Assembly: GCF_020696975.1 (NCBI RefSeq)
Contig: NZ_JAJGBK010000003.1
Span: forward strand, 62,001-126,000
From: Methanoculleus sp.
Lineage (GTDB): Archaea > Halobacteriota > Methanomicrobia > Methanomicrobiales > Methanoculleaceae
DNA: 64,000 nucleotides
Direction of reading: 5' to 3'
Of this stretch, positions 53,997-64,000 are shown piece after piece (within the stretch, counting starts at the first letter, position 1; every line of letters starts with the position of its first letter). A program made the position numbers and the translations under genes. The notes under the pieces were generated by a model, which had not been told where the DNA came from, did no database searches, and was given only the letters and a program-made list of their open reading frames with translations.

Positions 53997-54320
53997 GGGA
54001 AGTATATAATGATCTGTCCTGTCATCCTCAGGATGAGCACCCCGCGGCCGGCCCCTCCGGCGCCACCGTGCATGAGGACGGCGGGTGGCAGGGCTACGGC
54101 CCGTGGCATCGGTTCACAATGGGAGATCTCCCCTCACCGGGGAGATGGCCCCGATGCGACCCCGGCGATGAGAGCAGTGAGAGCGCACCCGCAGCAGAGT
54201 GGCGGGAACTGCCGCCAATAGGAAGATGTCAGGATATTTTGAAAATGCAGCCCGTTTGGGGATATTTATATGAGGGAATACGATGAATAGAACCAGTCAA
54301 AGAAATAGCAGGGTACCTGT
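53997..54320. other. Intergenic region before the first small basic-protein gene
   Basis: About 320 bases between the kinase start and the small gene hold no convincing frame. The 3' end contains the TATA box GATATTTATA and a conserved leader (see the gene at 54321). Otherwise GC-rich and featureless. Confidence 0.4.
54263..54270 (+). promoter_or_regulatory. TATA box of small basic-protein gene copy 1
   Basis: TATTTATA is 58 bases before ATG 54321. The matching gene at 58450 has TATTTATA at 58394-58401, 56 bases upstream, and both share a downstream ATAGAACCAG and a GGTACCTGT immediately before the ATG. Confidence 0.6.
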
Positions 54321-54458
54321 ATGCCAACAAGCAAGAAACAGATGGAGAAGTTAAACAGAGCGAAGAAGGCCAAGGCAGAAGAACTCGCGCAGCAGGCGGC
54401 TGCGGGTAGTCAGGCTGCCAAGAAGAAACTCAAGAAACTCGAGAAGAAGATTAAGTGA
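54321..54458 (+). CDS. 45-residue Lys/Ala-rich basic protein, copy 1
   Basis: This small protein (MPTSKKQMEKLNRAKKAK at the start, ending KKLEKKIK) is strongly basic and helical. A second gene at 58450-58587 encodes a protein differing at only a few positions (Q/M at 8, A/V at 14 and others). The identical length, shared leader sequence and conserved TATA spacing argue that both are real. It may bind nucleic acid or act as a small structural factor. It follows a kinase and precedes a frameshifted zinc-ribbon gene. Confidence 0.7.
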   Translation: MPTSKKQMEKLNRAKKAKAEELAQQAAAGSQAAKKKLKKLEKKIK

Positions 54459-54514
54459 GTTGCCCGGGGCTTTCAGCTGTTTTTATTTTCTTTTTCGACC
54501 GCCGCTCTGAACTC

Positions 54515-54969: not shown

Positions 54970-56196
54970 ATGGTTACACCGTTCAAACCAACGAGATGGA
55001 CGCTGCTTTTCCTCCTGCTTGCAGCCATGATGGTTCTCATGGGAGGAGCTGCAGTTGCGCCGGCTCTCCCCTTGATCAGCGAAGCATTTCCCGATGCACC
55101 AGAAGCCATGATCTCCATGATCATTACGCTTCCCGCGCTTGCGATAGCCCTCACCGGCTTTTTCATCGGAGAACTCTCGGACAGGATCGGCAAAATACCG
55201 GTCCTTGCCGCCTCTGTTGCTCTCTTCTCCATCGCGGGGTGTTCCGGATATTTCCTCACCACCTTACCCGCAATACTGGTCGGGAGGTTCATCCTCGGGA
55301 TCGGCATTGCCGGGATCATCTGCACGACGTCCGCCCTGATTGTCTGCTATTACGATGGGATCTCCCGCGCCAGGGTGCTCGGGTACCAGGCGGCCGCAAT
55401 GGGCATGGGAGTGGTGGTCCTCGAGATCAGCGGCGGGTATCTCGCAGGGATATCCTGGCGTGCGGCGTTTCTCATCTACCTGGTCGGTGTCGTCATTCTC
55501 GCGGGTGTTCTCCTGACGATGAGGGAACCCGCTCGCGTGAACGTCGAGAAGACGGCGGGAGCACCCGAAGAGACCTTCCCGGCCTCCCTCCTCCTCCCGG
55601 GATATGCAACCGTGTTCCTCGGGAATATGCTGTTCTTCCTGGTGCCCACGAAGTTCCCTTACCTGATTGCGAATCTGGATGTAGCACGAATCCTGGGCGA
55701 AAACTTCGCGCTTACCGCCGGGATATTCCTGGGAGCCATGGGCTGCGCCTCTTCGCTTGTGGGACTCGTTTACGGGAGAGTCGCCTGGAGGTTCCACCGG
55801 TATACCCTGCTCACCCTTGTCTTTGTCTTCTTCGGGACCGGTCTGTGCGGCCTCGGGTTTGCCACGTCGCTTCTCGCCGTCGGGGTCTCCGTGATCCTCG
55901 TCGGTCTGGCCCAGGGCATCCTGATGCCGACGATCCTGAGCTGGATCGCCGCGATCACGCCGAAACCGTTCATCGGCAGGGCAAGCGGCGGGTTCTCGGT
56001 GGCCATGAACCTCGGCCTGTTCGTCTCCACGCTTGCCATCGTGCCGGTCATCGCCGTTGTCGCGACCTACGGCAACCTCTTTCTGGCGTTCGGGTCTGCG
56101 GCGTTTGCGCTTGCCCTGCCGTATGCTCTCGCGATGGTGAAAAGGCAGTTTGCCCCGCGGGAGGTTGCCGTTGACCTGAGGCCCGGGGCGGAGTGA
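54970..56196 (+). CDS. Major facilitator superfamily transporter
   Basis: The 408-residue protein has 12 hydrophobic segments and the typical loop LSDRIGKIPVLAA between helices 2 and 3. It resembles drug/solute efflux permeases. The C-terminus ends VAVDLRPGAE, and the last ten codons are repeated, degenerate, at 63364-63396. The 3' end and the 150 bases after it form one copy of a dispersed repeat. Confidence 0.9.
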   Translation: MVTPFKPTRWTLLFLLLAAMMVLMGGAAVAPALPLISEAFPDAPEAMISMIITLPALAIALTGFFIGELSDRIGKIPVLAASVALFSIAGCSGYFLTTLPAILVGRFILGIGIAGIICTTSALIVCYYDGISRARVLGYQAAAMGMGVVVLEISGGYLAGISWRAAFLIYLVGVVILAGVLLTMREPARVNVEKTAGAPEETFPASLLLPGYATVFLGNMLFFLVPTKFPYLIANLDVARILGENFALTAGIFLGAMGCASSLVGLVYGRVAWRFHRYTLLTLVFVFFGTGLCGLGFATSLLAVGVSVILVGLAQGILMPTILSWIAAITPKPFIGRASGGFSVAMNLGLFVSTLAIVPVIAVVATYGNLFLAFGSAAFALALPYALAMVKRQFAPREVAVDLRPGAE

Positions 56197-56346
56197 AATC
56201 TTTTTTTGCGGTTCCGTAGTTCAGGTTGTGCTGCGAACGGGGTTTGGTTGACCTGGAGAGTGTTGTTATCACCCTCCGCCGGGCATCTCTCTTTGTGATT
56301 CTGGAGAGGGCGTCTTGAACCCCTCTCCTGCAAGATAACCGGAGAC
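56164..56346 (+). repeat. Dispersed repeat copy A (MFS tail + HEPN tail remnant)
   Basis: About 183 bases match, imperfectly (roughly three quarters identical by eye), the segment 63364-63548. Its left part is the MFS C-terminus. Its right part, read on the minus strand, matches the C-terminal codons of the HEPN gene (VSGYL.GEGF..PSP). Both copies share TGTTGTTATCACCCTCCGCC and CCCTCTCCTG at corresponding positions. They are direct repeats flanking about 7.0 kb. Confidence 0.75.
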
Positions 56347-56525
56347 AATTGGGAGTCCATTTCCCCGGTATGCCGGGTGGCCGGGAACCCTGCTGTGCCG
56401 TTGGCAGACTCCGGGAAGGCAGGCCCTGGATGCGAGGAGAATGCCTCGCGGTCGGCCTCTACGAGACCACTGCGGATGGGGTCGGCGGATGTGAGGTCAC
56501 GGGCCCGGACAGCGCTCCTGACGTT

Positions 56526-56853
56526 GGCAGCAGTGGCAGCAGATTGCAGCAGAATGGCAGCAGTTGCTGCCAACAAGAGATCGCCCGGAACGAGGAGGAT
56601 TCTGGGAAAACTGGCTGATATACTGGTAGAGATCTATGTATGTAATTATATGTACAGCAGAATAGGAGAACGGAGAGCACGGGCGATTGGCCTCCCACGG
56701 GGAACCGGGGTGCCTGTGTTTCCCGCACTGCTGCACATGAATTGGTGAAGTCTTTGTATCGGGACGGAGATGCCGATCTGAGCCTCAGAAATGCTTTGCT
56801 CATTGGCAGCAGTTGCTGCCAACGTGCTGCCAGATGCTGCCAACGTTGGCAGC
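56526..56853 (+). repeat. Iterated-motif element, copy 1 (GGCAGCA type)
   Basis: A non-coding element of about 330 bases. The left arm has GGCAGCA at 56526 and 56535, the degenerate TGCAGCA at 56545, GGCAGCA at 56556 and its complement TGCTGCC at 56565 (step sizes 9, 10, 11, 9). The right arm has GGCAGCA 56805, TGCTGCC 56814, 56825 and 56835, with CCAACGTTGG at 56840. The arms are mirror images, forming a long terminal inverted repeat. The interior contains TGTACAGCAGAATA (56651) and CCGGGGTGCCTGTGTTT (56705), both shared with copy 2. Confidence 0.75.
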
Positions 56854-56892
56854 GGCCGACCGATAGTAAGGAGATGCGGTGGCCTCGTTTAC

Positions 56893-56941
56893 AGTATCTA
56901 TCAGAATGTATCAAATTGATAGATACTATGATAGGTCTATC
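56893..56941. repeat. Cluster of GATAG palindromes between the two elements
   Basis: AGTATCTATC (56893-56902) and GATAGATACT (56918-56927) are a perfect 10-bp inverted repeat with a 15-base spacer, followed by GATAG-GT-CTATC at 56930-56941. The motifs point to a protein-binding site or stem structure. Confidence 0.55.
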
Positions 56942-56991
56942 GGGCCTGGAACAATGATACCGCCATCTGGCCGGACGACGGCCCGACGAAT

Positions 56992-57316
56992 GACAGCAAT
57001 GACAGCAGTTTTCAGCAGAATGACAGCAACTGCTGTCAATGAGACGGTGCCAGGAGCGGTGAGGATTCTGAAAATGCTGCTCTACATGGGGTATATACCT
57101 GTACAGGTACATATATGTACAGCAGAATAAGAGAACGGAGAGCATAGACGATGAGCGTGCCGGTGACGTCCGGGGTGCCTGTGTTTTCCGTGCTGCTGTC
57201 ATTCAAACAGGGGAAACTCCGGATTGTGCCCTGAATTAAGAAATCGCATTTATTCATCACTTGTTGAATGACAGCACCTGCTGTCAACGTGCTGTCACTT
57301 GCTGTCATCTGCTGTC
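56992..57316 (+). repeat. Iterated-motif element, copy 2 (GACAGCA type)
   Basis: The counterpart of the element 466 bases upstream. The left arm has GACAGCA at 56992 and 57001, a degenerate TTCAGCA at 57011, GACAGCA 57022 and TGCTGTC 57031 (same steps 9, 10, 11, 9). The right arm has GACAGCA 57270, TGCTGTC 57279, 57290, 57300 and 57310. Every intact motif and its complement differ from copy 1 by the same change (GG to GA in the forward motif). Interior matches are TGTACAGCAGAATA (57116) and CCGGGGTGCCTGTGTTT (57170), 465 bases from copy 1. Confidence 0.75.
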
Positions 57317-57690
57317 ATTCTCCACGCATGGTCAACCCCGGCGATTGCATAGTCCTCCCGGCGGCCGCCGGTCATGCAACGCTTCAACCACCCTGGCTCA
57401 TGATCAACTGGTAGTCCTCTTTCGGGTTCTCTCGCATCGCCTGTCCCCTGATATGCCCGGACCACATCTTGTTCGTAATGGGTTGAACTTCACCAGGTGA
57501 GTGAAGACCTTGATGGGCCTGAGGCTGATCCGGGGCGGGAAGAGTTCGTTGCCGAGGTTCGCCGGTGCGGTGAAGATCCGGGATGCGTCTTCGTACATCG
57601 GTGAGGTGACCTCAGAGGCCCCGGCGATTGCAGGTGGGAGGACCTGTCTGTCAACCCCGCCAGATTAATGGAAGATCATCAGTATACCCA
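57317..57690 (-). pseudogene. Degraded coding remnants
   Basis: No intact gene is seen. On the minus strand one frame reads VDRQVLPPAIAG.. and FPPRISLRPIKVFTHLV, and another reads MRENPKEDYQLIMSQGG before a stop near 57400. VDRQVLPPAI resembles VDRGLLPPAI in the HEPN gene at 63.5-64 kb, so part of this may be a HEPN remnant. Weak evidence. Confidence 0.3.
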
Positions 57691-58302: not shown

Positions 58303-58393
58303 TCACGGCGATGAAGTCCGCTCACCACCTGAAGGGATCTGAAAGGAAGGCGAAGCCGGCACCCTTTTCTTGATCGGTACAACGATACACGGG

Positions 58394-58401
58394 TATTTAT
58401 A
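58394..58401 (+). promoter_or_regulatory. TATA box of small basic-protein gene copy 2
   Basis: TATTTATA, 56 bases before ATG 58450, with downstream ATAGAACCAG and GGTACCTGT matching copy 1 at 54263. Confidence 0.6.
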
Positions 58402-58449
58402 CAAACAAAGAAGATATAGAACCAGCCAGAGACGTGGCAAGGTACCTGT

Positions 58450-58587
58450 ATGCCGACAAGCAAGAAACAACTGGAGAAACTGAACAGAGTAAAGAAAGCC
58501 AAGGCGGAAGAACTCGCGCAACAGGCGGCCGGGGGGAGCGAGGCCGCGAAGAAGAAGCTCAAGAAACTCCAGAAGAAGATCAAGTGA
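58450..58587 (+). CDS. 45-residue Lys/Ala-rich basic protein, copy 2
   Basis: Paralogue of the 54321 gene: MPTSKKQLEKLNRVKKAK at the start and KKLQKKIK at the end, same length. An overlapping 63-codon frame from 58434 is a shadow. A CCCGGGTTTTTTT sequence after the stop (58600s) is a likely terminator. The conserved leader suggests shared regulation. Confidence 0.7.
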   Translation: MPTSKKQLEKLNRVKKAKAEELAQQAAGGSEAAKKKLKKLQKKIK

Positions 58588-59033
58588 GCCGCCGGAGTGC
58601 CCGGGTTTTTTTCTACGACAAATAAGCCTGTGCGCCGCAGGGATGGCGCCGGTCGTGTACGGGATATGGCGCAGGACGACCTTCTGCTGCAGAGCATCCG
58701 AGAGCCTGTCGCCGCCATCCGCATGAACACGTCGGGATGCGGCCGGATGGAGAGGAGCAGGCCGGCTATCCGGTGACGGGCTTTAACCACGTTTTTTCCC
58801 GCCCCGGGGGGCCATGATACGCGCTGAGATCCTTTCGCTGAGCCGAGCGGAGTCTGCTTCTCTTCATCGCTCTCGCGCCCGACCGAAACATTTAGGATAT
58901 ATTAAATAGGGTCACGGCGATGACATGATATTTATCTTTCAGAAATATCCCGGATTCTACCGCACCATGGAATCTGAAGGATACTAATTGGATAATCCCG
59001 GAACAGGCGGGTTTCCAGGAGTGTCGATTAATA
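58588..59033. other. Intergenic region before the 59-63 kb operon
   Basis: About 445 bases without a convincing gene. It contains a CCCGGGTTTTTTTCT terminator near 58598-58612 and AT-rich AGGATATATTAAATAGG near 58890-58906, a plausible TATA region for the 59034 operon. Confidence 0.45.
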
Positions 59034-63236: not shown

Positions 63237-63363
63237 CCGGGGTTGAACGTCCGGCGAATCGGCCGGGGACGAAGTTACGTATCGCGTTTGCAGGTGTCGG
63301 GCATCGGCGCCGCGAACTATTAACTTCTCCCAGAATTGGTATTCTACGGAGCCCCGGAACAGG

Positions 63364-63548
63364 GTTGCCGTCGACGTGAAGCCCGAAGCGGAGTGAGATA
63401 TTTTTTGCGGGGTTCTGTATTTTCAGGTAGTGCTAAAAGCCGGGTCCGGTTGAGTGAGCGAGTGTTGTTATCACCCTCCGCCGGGAACCTCTCTTTGCGA
63501 TCACGGGGAGGGAGTCTCAAACCCCTCTCCTGTAAGGTAACCCGAGAC
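63364..63548 (+). repeat. Dispersed repeat copy B (degenerate MFS tail + HEPN tail)
   Basis: Matches 56164-56346. The left end encodes VAVDVKPEAE then stop (63394-63396), paralogous to the last residues of the MFS protein VAVDLRPGAE, with an upstream remnant EPRNR. The right end is the C-terminal coding end of the HEPN gene. Both copies are in the same orientation and about 7200 bases apart. Confidence 0.75.
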
Positions 63549-64000
63549 GATATCGAAGATCGTTCCCGCGACGGCAACCTTCGCAGACCACATGGCTCCT
63601 GTAAGGTAACCCGAGACGATATCGAAGATCTGCTCTGCCTCGCGCACGGTTCCGTTGGCGGAGGCTTTACCGTACGTCAGGCCATAGTCGGCGGCCTCCC
63701 GCGCGGTCTTCGCTCTGCGGAGGTCGGAGACAATTGCAGGAGGCAGCAGCCCTCTGTCGACGAACAACTCTTCGATGGCGGCTATAAGGCACTCGTGGCT
63801 CTTCTCGACGTAACCAGCGCTAAAGAGCAGCGATTTGCAGGCGTGGAACATTGAGTAGTATGCTTGATGATCGTCCACTTGAAGTCCGAGTCACAGAGGG
63901 AGTTCTTCGCCGAATCGAGATCTCGTTTCGCTTCGGCTAACTCCTTCTCGACCATCGCACTGCTTGCGGGCCGTTTGACCACACCCCGGCGGCTCACGCA
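63501..64000 (-). pseudogene. Frameshifted HEPN-domain gene (likely toxin half of HEPN/MNT pair)
   Basis: On the minus strand MVEKELAEAKRDLDSAKNS (from ATG 63955; or an earlier GTG 63997 or a start beyond the window) leads to DFKWTIIK, then the frame is lost by one missing base near 63861-63864. With that base restored it continues as AYYSMFHACKSLLFSAGY, EELFVDRGLLPPAI and on to a stop at 63501. This is the HEPN pattern of MNT-HEPN toxin-antitoxin pairs. The C-terminus has a tandem duplication with IFDIVSGYLTG twice. The 5' end may lie outside the window. Confidence 0.7.
63527..63630 (-). repeat. In-frame 69-bp tandem duplication in the HEPN C-terminus
   Basis: A 35-base sequence CTCCTGTAAGGTAACCCGAG... 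occurs at 63527-63561 and 63596-63630, i.e. offset 69 bases (23 codons), so the peptide IFDIVSGYLTG is repeated in frame. A recent slippage or unequal-exchange event. Confidence 0.75.

Follow-up and report, generated by a model that had tools for sequence, protein, structure and literature searches.

The window that we have analysed is a stretch of 64,000 nucleotides from Methanoculleus sp. (contig NZ_JAJGBK010000003.1), and positions refer to it unless another locus is named. It contains two similar elements built of 7-bp motifs (iterons), termed copy 1 and copy 2, that lie within decayed sequence of a gene we call rep. The features are as follows.

56405 to 56525, + strand: decayed remnant of rep preceding copy 1, from the part that lies between winged helix and linker (blastn flank alignment)
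56508 to 56840, + strand: rep pseudogene fragment 1 (G type), linker region, residues 733-843 of P0001 (tblastn, E = 1.4e-14)
56526 to 56571: left iteron cluster of copy 1, three GGCAGCA, a degenerate TTGCAGCA and TGCTGCC
56640 to 56722: central block of copy 1, TATGTACAGCAGAATA ... CCGGGGTGCCTGTGTTT
56805 to 56854: right iteron cluster of copy 1, GGCAGCA followed by three TGCTGCC
56526, 56535, 56556 and 56805, + strand: exact motifs of copy 1
56565, 56814, 56825 and 56835, − strand: exact motifs of copy 1
56883 to 56925: unrelated dispersed palindromic repeat between the two fragments, ATCTATCA...TGATAGAT
56935 to 57366, + strand: rep pseudogene fragment 2 (A type), residues 720-860 of P0001 (tblastn, E = 6e-18)
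56992 to 57037: left iteron cluster of copy 2, three GACAGCA, a degenerate TTTCAGCA and TGCTGTC
57105 to 57188: central block of copy 2
57270 to 57316: right iteron cluster of copy 2, GACAGCA followed by four TGCTGTC
56992, 57001, 57022 and 57270, + strand: exact motifs of copy 2
57031, 57194, 57279, 57290, 57300 and 57310, − strand: exact motifs of copy 2

The original prediction described paired elements whose motifs had changed in concert, and the pairing is real. Exact counting gives eight GGCAGCA/TGCTGCC and no GACAGCA/TGCTGTC in copy 1, and ten GACAGCA/TGCTGTC and no GGCAGCA/TGCTGCC in copy 2, with no crossing between the copies; the window-wide average predicts ~0.1 per 330 bp for either motif. 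The left-arm steps of 9, 10, 11 and 9 are the same in both copies, as had been claimed, when the degenerate third motif (TTGCAGC / TTTCAGC) is counted. The interior blocks reported as shared are also found, the copies aligning with 74-77% identity in register at a spacing of 465-466. A lone interior TGCTGTC is present at 57194 in copy 2, and intact A-type genes likewise have one. The counterpart of the central block of copy 1 (56640 to 56722) in intact genes exhibits reduced synonymous change.

On sequence comparison both copies are decayed fragments of one rep gene region, interrupted by in-frame stops. The rep frame is recognisable by tblastn from 56508, and fragment 1 has a TGA at 56616-56618 together with further stops. 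Its flank (56405 to 56525) aligns by blastn with the corresponding position of the relatives L034, L035, L037, L041 and L061. Fragment 2 extends from VYRAW through the linker to VNPGDCIVLPAA, and the first of its in-frame stops is the TGA at 57040-57042. Taking alignment and structure prediction together, the element is the coding sequence of a ~130-residue linker of Rep that is predicted to be disordered. The suggestion of a stand-alone element, a MITE or an RNA gene was wrong; the sequence is the portion of a rep gene, in this case a pseudogene, that codes for the linker. Its proposed boundaries are in fact those of gene fragments, with homology running past the arms into rep; the motif arms are as described, but in place of a ~325-bp element the rep homology reaches from ~56405 to 57366.

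Within the window's own genome these two copies are the only elements of this kind, and we found no intact rep there. A third decayed rep copy, of iteron class GGTGAAAA/TTTTCACC, occurs in that genome on contig C29, at L193 (G000:C29:57088-58158), and GTGAAAA-type motifs are present in its linker. The relic site in the window is common to several species (L034, L035, L037, L054, L055 and L061). Further copies with coherent motif variants had been anticipated, and ~26 full relatives falling into two coherent classes were found in genomes of the same genus. The rep gene is spread across Methanoculleus and other Methanomicrobiales, with homologues in 34 of the 47 good genomes searched across the order. 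In the intact relatives the element lies in frame inside open reading frames of 959-1295 amino acids, always following a winged-helix-like region and preceding CxxC motifs of zinc-ribbon-like type. In the protein the left arm reads DSNDSSFQQNDSNCCQ and the right arm NDSTCCQRAETCCH.

The iterons of a window copy are nearly identical to those of the intact gene L059, with mismatches at 1 of 63 iteron positions versus 79 of 277 non-iteron positions (p = 3e-7). Comparison of copy 1 with L034 revealed no significant extra conservation of iterons after gene death (4/62 versus 41/287 mismatches, p = 0.14), and comparison of L037b with L041 gave no support for it either (2/42 versus 5/282). The idea that relics are kept as solo origins is unsupported by these two comparisons. 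Compact forms with fused arms (L040, L044, L054, L055 and L061) are confined to relics and to genes that are damaged, a pattern compatible with deletion between repeated dyads.

The domain order of the intact protein is putative primase, MCM-like AAA+, winged helix, linker and zinc ribbon. Residues 5-325 match a phage protein annotated as a DNA-directed DNA polymerase (tblastn, 2e-58); no Pfam AEP model scored above cut-off for this putative N-terminal primase domain. Residues 354-686 weakly resemble the putative Rep of small Methanothermobacter plasmids, and a predicted structure of only moderate confidence (mean pLDDT 67, pTM 0.43) matches MCM AAA+ helicases in Foldseek (E = 8e-9). A wHTH-like region lies at ~645-740, the linker has a pLDDT of about 25, and CxxC pairs follow it, for which Pfam zinc models scored below cut-off only. 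No Pfam or NCBIfam family naming Rep was found above cut-off, and PDB sequence searches returned no significant match; the single PHROG match (2e-7) is of unknown function.

These properties fit the arCOG07809 protein (Mpal_2033), reported to contain primase, helicase, HTH and Zn-finger domains and to be encoded by small integrative elements with integrases in methanogens (Makarova et al. 2014, PMC4158269). The two are alike in helicase, HTH and Zn finger, in the whole domain set reported there if the N-terminal domain is a primase as predicted, and in their methanogen and Methanomicrobiales hosts, and we propose membership by matching domain order and host group, not by direct comparison with Mpal_2033. 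The helicase is called SF1 in that report, whereas the fold match here is MCM-like. The part of the report drawn on here describes the protein and the elements and no origin; relative to that description the linker iterons, their variants and the covariation with the helix presented below are new.

A gene for Orc1/Cdc6 lies directly upstream of rep at 15 loci of the Methanoculleus A/G subfamily (PF22703 above cut-off), and none was found near rep in the other subfamilies. This paralogue (L052 11496-12656 and 14 similar loci) is linked to rep in the one subfamily only, and such linkage may account for some of the numerous cdc6 paralogues that these archaea have. A small conserved open reading frame is also found directly upstream of rep (L052 10691-11227 and equivalents), ending in ...FQRVARGEAxSAPLFPLVPG and without a Pfam match. 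Integrase-like reading frames, assigned by eye, lie upstream of rep in L112 and L128.

Across 46 homologues the linker DNA contains two motif clusters whose sequence varies from gene to gene, including GGCAGCA, GACAGCA, TGCAGCA, GTTGCAA, GGTGTAAA and TTTCAGCA, and in other genes GTGTAAA, ACTTCAA and TTGCCCA. We permuted codons among equal residues of each linker, a shuffle that keeps both protein and codon usage. The motif excess over these synonymous shuffles had p ≤ 0.01 in 28 of the 46 linkers, and 26 of the 46 surpassed all windows of equal length in the gene to which they belong. Eighteen fail the shuffle test, and in a few of the linkers (L088, L127 and L129) there was no motif excess of any degree. 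The two arms are coherent: when the best 6-mer is taken from the left half, it is met again on average 2.57 times in the right half of the same linker, compared with 0.59 times in other genes and 0.61 times in controls from the gene body. A motif chosen in the linker is 35-626 times as dense there as in the flanking locus. The sole close motif pair outside the linkers is in L128 and consists of an overlapping palindromic match, and there was no iteron cluster near the rep promoter. The linkers carry several short repeats specific to one replicon, as do iteron origins. Three otherwise open rep genes have in-frame tandem expansions of the right iteron unit, with ~153-bp units in L049 (8539-9451) and L050 and ~174-bp units in L051 (7856-8430).

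The dN/dS ratio is 0.73 in the linker versus 0.18-0.26 elsewhere in the gene. Within the linker pS is 0.23-0.33 in the arms and centre and 0.41-0.48 in the remainder, although the synonymous-identity profile alone is noisy (sd 0.10 for gene-body windows), so that dN/dS and the shuffles carry the argument. The elevated dN/dS and the lowest synonymous change in arms and centre indicate stronger constraint on the linker DNA than on the protein. Moreover, the change of motif from G to A converts Gly to Asp in the left arm, whereas in the right arm it is silent (TGC/TGT); this points to a cause at the level of DNA. One and the same place is occupied by different motifs in proteins whose identity is as low as ~46%. 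The central block is only mildly AT-rich. The minimum GC over 60 bp is mostly 0.35-0.48, falling to 0.23-0.32 in L120, L118, L121 and L084; most linkers have no strong AT-rich stretch.

The type of iteron follows the putative recognition helix of the winged-helix region. All eight GACAGCA genes have the helix GLSYQKT (in one case GLPYQKT), and all seven GGCAGCA and G/T-mixed genes have GLSYYQT, a 15/15 association with a Fisher p of 1.6e-4 that is not corrected for kinship. In addition GYTA pairs with GTTGCAA (five genes) and GYTT with TGCAGCA (two genes). With overall distance removed, the winged-helix segment shows the strongest correlation with iteron type (partial r as high as 0.30, compared with −0.24 to about 0.2 outside it), and the recognition-helix window gives the highest value. 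Two genes of one genome, L045 and L058, agree over this domain apart from the recognition helix, a small number of scattered residues and their iterons, and the well-supported sisters L064 (QK, GACAGCA) and L103 (QR, GTGTAAA) differ in both helix and iterons. Independent changes are few, with four pairs on the best tree and one on well-supported branches.

Taking these sequence data with the analogies below, we consider it probable that this is an iteron replication origin inside its own initiator gene, as in lambda O, and that the copies in the window are two dead ones, remnants lying in tandem of a pair of rep genes that belonged to an integrative element. The window elements are not a new element class; they are a fossil pointing to a likely intragenic iteron origin in an archaeal replicon family that has received little study. 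Of the ideas put forward at the outset, a replication-like site and repeats read by a protein of diverged specificity are the best supported. We infer binding, strand opening, origin activity and incompatibility. The linker-coding DNA would be the replication origin of the element, with two clusters of 7-bp iterons flanking a central block. The winged helix, encoded just upstream, would read both clusters, the MCM-like helicase domain would be loaded at the central block and open it, and the primase domain would start synthesis. Initiator and origin would travel as one unit. A change in the recognition helix would accompany a change of all the iterons in the same gene, generating separate specificities (G, A, T, GTTGCAA, GTGTAAA and others), and the cassette of DNA-binding domain and iterons might be swapped.

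The assignment of the linker DNA as origin draws on lambda O (PMC7466680), repABC plasmids (PMC3155836) and SaPI Rep (PMC7581432). The lambda origin lies in the middle of the O gene, and silent mutations of its iterons abolish function (PMC7466680). It thus has iterons inside an initiator gene, as here, but O lacks primase and helicase, and here there are two iteron clusters and an unrelated protein. In repABC plasmids oriV lies within repC and is also abolished by silent mutations; this is an origin inside initiator coding sequence, as we propose, but it is without iterons and its key feature is an A+T-rich tract (PMC3155836). The Rep helicases of SaPI and SCC and the alpha protein of phage P4 are likewise self-contained initiator helicases with a C-terminal DNA-binding domain reading iterons; unlike here, the SaPI iterons lie downstream of the gene and P4 alpha has a Toprim primase (PMC7581432, PMC4234260). 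ORF904 of pRN1, in a combination resembling the one predicted for Rep, has AEP primase, helicase and winged helix in an archaeal replicon, but the helicase is SF3 and the origin is a downstream stem-loop without iterons (PMC4234260).

The iterons might instead be intragenic regulatory or partition sites, an operator or centromere bound by Rep or Orc1/Cdc6. Both autoregulation and partition use iterated binding sites, and at the 15 A/G-subfamily loci Orc1/Cdc6 could be the reader. Yet the sites lie ~2.5 kb into the gene, away from a promoter that has no iteron cluster near it, and Rep carries a predicted primase domain and a helicase domain. We regard this alternative as unlikely. Orc1/Cdc6 as a general reader is disfavoured because subfamilies without it nearby also have iterons.

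It is quite improbable that the linker is simply low-complexity coding sequence (DSNDSS- or CCQ-rich), homogenised by slippage and gene conversion and with no function as DNA. The linker is predicted to be disordered and evolves fast, in-frame repeat expansion (L049 and L050) and deletion between dyads (L040) do happen, and conversion could spread some iteron changes. Against this, motif counts exceed those of synonymous shuffles, conservation in the arms is seen at synonymous sites and not in the protein, and the G-to-A change is silent on one side only. Nor would such a process account for a motif type that tracks the DNA-binding helix, or for different motifs at one place in proteins so far diverged.

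Pairing of the arms as an RNA hairpin or DNA cruciform seems more doubtful still. Both copies fold far better than shuffled sequences (z = −6.4 and −6.8), and a stem-loop is the origin in the pRN family (PMC4234260). However, each arm is itself built of direct and inverted motifs at helical-turn-like steps, and the strong RNA folding is explained by these dyad motifs. All four motifs of L114 have the same orientation and those of L109 are mixed, so inverted arms are not conserved, and the helix covariation favours reading by a protein. An Rfam scan of the elements gave no match at E up to 1, and with arm orientation varying across homologues we rejected a structured RNA. The hairpin proposal is weakened.

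The possibility that two copies of a non-autonomous transposon, or of an element with terminal repeats, inserted close together can be dismissed: there are two similar copies 466 bp apart and the sequence is multicopy in the genus, but the copies elsewhere are in frame in one gene at one position rather than at independent insertion sites with target duplications, and the boundaries are those of gene fragments, with rep homology beyond the arms.

Returning to the intragenic origin, we lean somewhat towards a broader proposal, of a family of archaeal mobile replicons with the origin within the disordered linker of their own primase-helicase initiator, and many compatible specificities arising by exchange or co-mutation of the recognition helix and adjacent iterons. 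Few replication origins of integrative elements in archaea are known. If correct, the proposal would provide predicted origins, from sequence alone, for a widespread group of methanogen elements, and a natural series of recognition helices matched to their binding sites. It would also give a simple account of how several related elements share one genome, and an example of a single stretch of DNA serving as both protein linker and replication site, with DNA constraint above protein constraint.

Other repeats lie nearby. The repeat between the two fragments is a ~30-bp imperfect palindrome, TATCTATCARAATGTAWCAAAYTGATAGAT, present twice in the window's own genome (window 56883-56925 and G000:C1:126787-126816) and at 90-98% identity in many genomes of the genus; in L044 two copies lie upstream of a Fic-like gene. 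Two pairs of dispersed ~190 bp repeats, at 56163-56349 and 63363-63551 and at 58391-58588 and 54260-54459, are also found in relatives, with 79-82% identity within the pairs.
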